From the NCBI GenBank assembly GCA_029265815.1, contig JAJUGU010000001.1, forward strand, positions 547,941 through 611,940: DNA of 64,000 nt, given 5' to 3'. The notes below the pieces were generated by a model. It ran no database searches and was not told the DNA's origin. It worked only from the letters and a program-made list of their open reading frames with translations. Numbering within the stretch: position 1 is the first letter of the stretch; each line of letters opens with the position of its first letter. This DNA comes from Anaerolineaceae bacterium. GTDB lineage: Bacteria; Chloroflexota; Anaerolineae; Anaerolineales; Anaerolineaceae. This document shows, piece after piece, positions 1,822 through 3,405 of the stretch. Made by a program: the position numbers and the translations under genes.

Positions 1822-3405
1822 ATGACATTACTTCAATCGATCATTCTCGGTATCATTCAGGGTCTTACTGAGTTTCTACCTATTTCCTCTTCCGCTCACC
1901 TTGTCTTGGTTCCATACATATTCAATTGGAACCTCCCTGAAAGCCAGATTTTTCCGTTTGATGTTTTGGTTCAAATTGGTACTCTCGTGGCTGTGATCAT
2001 TTATTTCTGGAAAGACCTGATCATTATATTAAAAGCATTCTTTCGAGGTCTGGTCGAGCGCAAGCCATTTGACGAGCCAAACGCTCGCCTGGGTTGGTAT
2101 CTCATCCTTGCTACCATTCCAGCTGGTCTTGCTGGTGTATTGCTAAAATCAAAAGTTGAGGCGGCTTTCAACAATCCCCGCCTGACCGCATATTTTCTGA
2201 TTATCACTGCAGTAATGCTGCTTGCCGCAGAATTTTTCAGCCGCCGCAGCCGCTCATTGGTGGATCTCAAATGGTATGATGCTTTATGGATAGGAATTTT
2301 TCAAGCTATATCCATTTTCCCTGGTGTTTCGCGCTCAGGTTCCACAATCACTGGTGGGATGACTCGCCATTTTGACCGGCCTTCCGCAGCCCGTTTTTCT
2401 TTTCTGATGTCCATCCCGGTAATGATCGCAGCAGGAGGAATGAGTCTTTTAGACTTGTTAGAGGTCCCAGATCTGGGTGCATTCCTACCTGTGCTCGCCA
2501 TTGGCTTTATTGCTGCTCTTCTAGTTGGGTATTTATCCATCCACTGGCTGCTCTCGTTTTTGAAAAAAAGGTCACTGGTTTATTTTTCCGCCTACTGTGC
2601 ACTGCTGGCGATTACTGTGATCATCATCGGCAACGTTCGCAGCGAAACAAACCAATCCCCTGCGGTGTTTACTTCAACTCAAACACAATCTCTTGCTGCT
2701 AACATAACTGAACTTCCCCAGGCATCCGTAACTAATATCGAATACACAGCTTCTCTAGACTGGATGCTCCCGGCAATGACATCCTGCGCTAATGCAACAA
2801 AAGATTTCTCAATCGTTACTCATCTCGTTCCAGGCAGCCAGTTCACCCCATCCGAAGGAGCGATCCTCCTTCGATGGGGAGAACCTCCCAACCTGATCGA
2901 ATATTCCACCCAGCTTGGAATCAACCAGCTTAAGGTCGTGGTCAATCCCTCAAACCCAGTGGATTCTCTGTCAAGTGATTTGATTCGTCAGATTTCACAC
3001 AAAGAACTCTCTTCGTGGAGTGAGGTATATCAGAATTGCCCTGATTGTTTTGCATCGAACCTGGGAACGGAGTTGGGCGCAACTTCACCTGGATTTAATT
3101 TTTATCTTGTCGGCGAGGAGATTCAGGACCTTTTCGACAGGGTTTTAATGGCCAATGCTCCGGTTTCACGTGCCTCATCCACACTGATTCCTTCTACATT
3201 GAGCATGCGTGATGCTGTTTCAAATTCCCCATCTCAGATCGGCTTTCTTCCTTCTGGGGCAATCGACACAACTGTGAAACCAGTGACAATAACCGGTATC
3301 GAAGAGGACAGCCTGACACTGCCAATCCTTGCCATTTCGAAGGAGAAGCCACAGGGTTCTACAGCTGAATGGCTTATTTGCTTACAGCAATCCCTAAATC
3401 CATAA
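1822..3405 (+). CDS. uppP: Undecaprenyl-diphosphatase fused to a PstS-like periplasmic domain
   Basis: Residues 1 to about 270 are a complete UppP/BacA, the membrane phosphatase that recycles undecaprenyl diphosphate for cell-wall synthesis. The EFLPISSSAHL (near 18) and PGVSRSGST (near 168) catalytic blocks and multiple membrane spans are present. Normal UppP ends at 265-290 residues; this one continues to 527. After the last span comes a Ser/Thr-rich linker and a domain with features of phosphate-binding PstS-like proteins: KVVVNPSNPVDSLSSD followed by LSSWSEV, and near the end AVSNSPSQIGFLPSGA. These match the usual 'VVNP.NPV..L' and 'V..NPGAIGY' patterns. The extension should lie outside the membrane. 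No frameshift or stop separates the parts. The UppP call is firm; the PstS-like assignment is by motif only. Confidence 0.9.
   Translation: MTLLQSIILGIIQGLTEFLPISSSAHLVLVPYIFNWNLPESQIFPFDVLVQIGTLVAVIIYFWKDLIIILKAFFRGLVERKPFDEPNARLGWYLILATIPAGLAGVLLKSKVEAAFNNPRLTAYFLIITAVMLLAAEFFSRRSRSLVDLKWYDALWIGIFQAISIFPGVSRSGSTITGGMTRHFDRPSAARFSFLMSIPVMIAAGGMSLLDLLEVPDLGAFLPVLAIGFIAALLVGYLSIHWLLSFLKKRSLVYFSAYCALLAITVIIIGNVRSETNQSPAVFTSTQTQSLAANITELPQASVTNIEYTASLDWMLPAMTSCANATKDFSIVTHLVPGSQFTPSEGAILLRWGEPPNLIEYSTQLGINQLKVVVNPSNPVDSLSSDLIRQISHKELSSWSEVYQNCPDCFASNLGTELGATSPGFNFYLVGEEIQDLFDRVLMANAPVSRASSTLIPSTLSMRDAVSNSPSQIGFLPSGAIDTTVKPVTITGIEEDSLTLPILAISKEKPQGSTAEWLICLQQSLNP

Follow-up and report, generated by a model that had tools for sequence, protein, structure and literature searches.

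A UppP phosphatase with a tethered PstS-like periplasmic-binding-protein domain in Anaerolineaceae

We found that the window, a stretch of 64,000 nucleotides of an Anaerolineaceae genome, carries a gene that joins the undecaprenyl-diphosphate phosphatase UppP (BacA) to a C-terminal domain with a periplasmic-binding-protein fold. We propose that this domain serves UppP as an accessory subunit outside the cytoplasm, that it was once a lipoprotein and is now tethered, and that it probably acts at the outer face on a target other than free phosphate; the gene product would then unite the cell's only BacA-type phosphatase and this subunit in one covalent chain. Comparisons of sequence and gene order establish the architecture and the origin of the domain from a neighbouring lipoprotein gene; the enzyme and the fold from which its subunit derives are both known, and the novelty lies in the lineage-specific subunit. 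UppP, which recycles the carrier lipid of cell-wall synthesis, is widespread and a drug target, and its regulation, its coupling partners and its possible role in lipid flipping are open questions. That a gene pair found class-wide has turned into one protein argues strongly, at the level of genomes, for an extracytoplasmic partner dedicated to UppP. The first-pass annotation, made from the sequence alone, knew of no UppP of this build, and a literature search for UppP fusions or for a uppP-PstS operon or gene pair, with subscription journals mostly outside its scope, likewise found no description.

The fusion gene and its two halves

The gene is one uninterrupted reading frame of 527 amino acids from ATG to TAA, with the tgt stop codon immediately upstream and glnA as its other neighbour. 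Positions 1-684 of the window encode the C-terminal portion of a protein resembling anion transporters (CitMHS / Na_sulph_symp), whose gene is cut off by the window start. The features are as follows.

685-1821, + strand: tgt, queuine tRNA-ribosyltransferase (Pfam TGT, 1e-157); its stop abuts the uppP start, and relatives have the gene order tgt, uppP, binding-protein gene
1822-3405, + strand: UppP-binding-protein fusion gene, 527 aa, an open reading frame found in 16/16 same-genus genomes and in G030
1822-2625, + strand: UppP/BacA domain, residues 1-268 (Pfam BacA, 2e-84; TIGR00753 above cut-off), sole BacA of the genome
1858-1899, + strand: UppP active-site motif 1, QGLTEFLPISSSAH (Q13, E17, S23, H26), near-invariant in alignment A2
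2320-2340, + strand: UppP active-site motif 2, PGVSRSG (R171), residues 167-173; P167, G168 and S170-G173 invariant in alignment A2
2578-2649, + strand: last UppP helix, residues 253-276 (AlphaFold2 helix), standing where the separate genes have their lipoprotein signal peptide (lipobox)
2644-2721, + strand: predicted flexible linker, residues 275-300 (pLDDT below 50), of variable length among homologues
2722-3402, + strand: domain with predicted periplasmic-binding-protein fold, residues 301-527 (AlphaFold2 pLDDT 92, pTM 0.84; Foldseek matches to PstS)
2785-2787, + strand: Cys322, invariant in the clade, putative disulfide partner of Cys520
2872-2880, + strand: R351-W352-G353 (LRWG motif), at the 'ASR/ASD' phosphate loop of PstS
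3037-3048, + strand: CPDC (CxxC) loop, C406 and C409, conserved in the fused genus
3103-3126, + strand: Y428-LVGEEIQ, at the R..SGT phosphate-signature position of PstS, with Arg changed to Tyr and SGT lost
3379-3381, + strand: Cys520, invariant in the clade

The N-terminal half is a full-length UppP. Residues 7-264 match Pfam BacA (PF02673) at 2e-84 over profile positions 2-256 of 257, and TIGR00753 matches with 242.8 bits against a cut-off of 217.5. Both active-site motifs, (E/Q)xxxE...S..H and PGxSRSG, are present, and Q13, E17, S23 and H26 are spaced as Glu17, Glu21, Ser27 and His30, the active-site residues of E. coli UppP (PMC5861054), the correspondence being mapped by this spacing. The genome encodes no other BacA; two PAP2 proteins of unknown role are also present. 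What sets the protein apart from UppP/BacA is the added C-terminal extracytoplasmic domain of about 250 residues. Because the C-terminus of UppP is periplasmic in crystal structures (PMC5861054, PMC5852022), it follows that the tail lies on the outer face, which agrees with the lipoprotein signal of its separate versions.

A Pfam scan of the single tail sequence gave no match, and family profiles were therefore needed. The NCBIfam PstS family TIGR02136 matched the tail weakly (3e-7), at 27-30 bits against a curated cut-off of 206.6. A profile built from 36 tail homologues matched PstS chains in the PDB with E-values down to 1.6e-19, and 20 of its 36 members matched PBP_like_2 (PF12849). AlphaFold gave residues 301-527 a confident binding-protein fold, the type II fold of PstS, and the best Foldseek matches in the PDB were PstS proteins (4lat: E 1.6e-14, TM 0.66). 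These results bear out the earlier claim of an outward-facing domain of the binding-protein type with PstS as its closest known fold, a claim that would have been lost had structure prediction returned another fold; the PstS-like motifs quoted for it (VVVNPSNPV..L, LSSWSEV and SPSQIGFLPSGA) are all found in the sequence. In a full-length model (pTM 0.57) both halves are confident and the linker is disordered, which leaves the position of one half relative to the other free.

Fused and separate forms

We counted the two forms in 37 genomes of the family, in which the genus is represented by the window's own genome and 15 others. The full-length fusion, in one frame, occurs in all 16 genus genomes and in one genome of a neighbouring genus (G030), 17/37 in total, and a further 15/37, all outside the fused set, have a separate gene for the domain directly after uppP. 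The separate proteins begin with a lipoprotein signal peptide (lipobox), and their genes typically overlap the uppP stop codon by 8-17 nt. The order tgt, uppP, lipoprotein gene recurs across the order and the class. The first-pass annotation thus saw the fusion correctly, and proposed looking for it in relatives, but missed that the domain usually exists as a separate lipoprotein gene beside uppP throughout the class.

Since uppP and the domain are separate genes in relatives, one could ask whether an assembly or annotation artefact has joined two genes here. We rejected this explanation, to which we give next to no chance, because the identical fusion is present without a stop codon in 17 independently assembled genomes; the assembly error raised as a caveat at the outset is thereby excluded. 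The separate lipoprotein gene next door in relatives instead argues that the domain is a real partner of UppP. We infer that, with an overlap of 8-17 nt, a small indel could fuse both genes. Two overlapping genes would so have become one frame in the fused lineage, the last UppP helix taking over from the lipid anchor. In a UppP tree the fused proteins form one clade with modest support (66/94), which is consistent with a single fusion event.

No domain gene lies next to uppP in four family genomes (G022, G027, G029 and G031), which indicates that the domain is not essential everywhere. In G031, a gene for a class A penicillin-binding protein (Transgly and Transpeptidase) directly follows and overlaps uppP (L120:1667-4381). 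G021 has the lipoprotein gene directly after tgt with no uppP between them (L041:832-2699), and the best UppP match in this genome is divergent and lies on a different contig. Among 36 class-level loci, picked from the stronger matches, uppP adjoined or lay near the gene in 31/36 and did not in 4/36, and 1/36 was a true PstS beside pstC. A gene for an M20-family peptidase often stands between uppP and the lipoprotein gene in one family, f12 (L084, L085, L086, L093, L096 and L098). We also searched the phylum with a uppP-linked relative that resembles PstS; among the best 30 loci, the typable ones from outside the class were pstC-linked, and the uppP link was thus not found to extend further.

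Divergence from PstS

A search of the class with the tail profile returned true PstS and uppP-linked proteins mixed below about 1e-27, and these were sorted by their neighbours and by a tree. A tree of 81 domains placed pstC-linked PstS proteins from the whole phylum, including those of the window's own genome and family, in one clade (100/99) with five orphan paralogues; every uppP-linked sequence, the window domain among them, fell outside this clade. True PstS genes are followed by pstC and uppP-linked genes are not. The uppP-linked protein is a paralogue distinct from PstS. Some class paralogues that have no uppP link (in families f18, f34 and f49) also lie outside the PstS clade; beside the f18 clade of PstS-like paralogues (L185, L188, L189, L194, L196, L197 and L198), neither uppP nor pstC was seen in the stretches read or in the wider regions around them.

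With PstS and the PBP_like_2 family (PF12849, TIGR02136) the window domain shares the type II fold, a central stretch that aligns and, in its separate homologues, the lipoprotein form. It differs in its link to uppP instead of pstCAB, in its shorter C-terminus and gained cysteine pair, and above all at the phosphate site, which we take to consist of Arg135, Ser139-Gly140-Thr141, Ser38 and Asp56 in E. coli numbering. All true PstS (18/18) and all distant uppP-linked relatives (16/16) have the Arg, but it is replaced, mostly by Tyr, throughout the Anaerolineales clade that includes the window protein. The SGT motif is complete in PstS, partial (mostly kept) in the distant uppP-linked group and lost in the Anaerolineales clade, in which the Ser38 loop is deleted as well. 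The window domain accordingly has Tyr for Arg and neither SGT nor the Ser38 loop.

These residues weigh on the earlier suggestion that the domain captures the phosphate released by UppP, which could relieve product inhibition or pass phosphate to the Pst system. By fold and by sequence family the domain is indeed closest to PstS, the genome has a normal Pst locus at another site (its PstS adjoins pstC on contig C21), and the Arg and SGT retained by the distant uppP-linked relatives suggest that an oxyanion may have been the ligand of the ancestral partner. However, the anion-site residues of PstS are replaced or deleted in the window protein and in its whole Anaerolineales clade, and the fusion gene has no pst genes nearby. 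Phosphate capture by the window protein is therefore disfavoured on sequence grounds, and we consider it improbable.

Every clade member (56/56) has both Cys322 and Cys520, a combination present in 0/50 other sequences; this pattern points to a disulfide gained in the Anaerolineales clade. The CPDC loop is found in a few separate homologues as well.

Loss of the ancestral site might also mean that the domain is degenerate or purely structural, a one-time binding protein that now serves for stability or folding, with neither a ligand nor a specific partner. Its fast divergence (median identity 34%, against 69% for UppP) and its shortened loops would fit. On the other side, the closest pairs, whose dS is near 1, give dN/dS values of 0.14-0.17 (tail) and 0.03-0.05 (UppP), and from these ratios the tail is under purifying selection, constrained though faster evolving. 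It is retained in every genus genome, the LRWG and Tyr428 positions are conserved and the Cys pair is invariant. We regard a purely structural role as unlikely.

Possible roles at the outer face

As a tethered accessory subunit, the domain would not act by binding free phosphate in the manner of PstS, because the PstS site is gone. The linker of about 25 residues would keep it mobile above the outward-opening pocket of UppP, and tethering would fix the stoichiometry at 1:1. From there it may help UppP to handle its substrate, or may dock UppP to partners such as peptidoglycan synthases. By analogy, a docking role is plausible because C55-PP phosphatases stimulate PBP1B in E. coli, where direct binding of BacA to PBP1B is equivocal (PMC6053597).

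The transporter-like inverted repeat of UppP has prompted the hypothesis that it is a flippase (PMC5861054), and this fold invites comparison with transporters that use substrate-binding domains, an analogy that is attractive but unproven. The domain might on this basis be a receptor that binds the head group of C55-PP or C55-P and either delivers it to UppP or receives it from there. A receptor of this kind would be in keeping with the flippase role proposed for UppP. Coupling to a transporter is typical of substrate-binding domains, and the UppP pocket opens towards the side on which the domain lies. Yet no pocket suited to pyrophosphate is recognisable, and the basic and serine residues of the anion site are lost, so we give this reading little credence. 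We see a similarly slim chance that UppP throughout the class has its own substrate-binding-protein subunit, whether as a lipoprotein or in fused form, which binds the carrier-lipid head group or its product and makes UppP a binding-protein-dependent machine for recycling or flipping; if true, this would be a substrate-binding-protein-dependent phosphatase or flippase, not known before.

GlnPQ-type ABC importers are transporters with fused substrate-binding domains. The fusion is like them in tethering a periplasmic-binding-protein domain to an outward-opening membrane protein and differs in that its membrane partner is a phosphatase, for which any transport activity would be hypothetical. A metagenome-assembled genome assigned to Anaerolinea thermophila (L166) has the separate gene pair, so that the accessory-subunit proposal may be open to direct study in a cultured relative.
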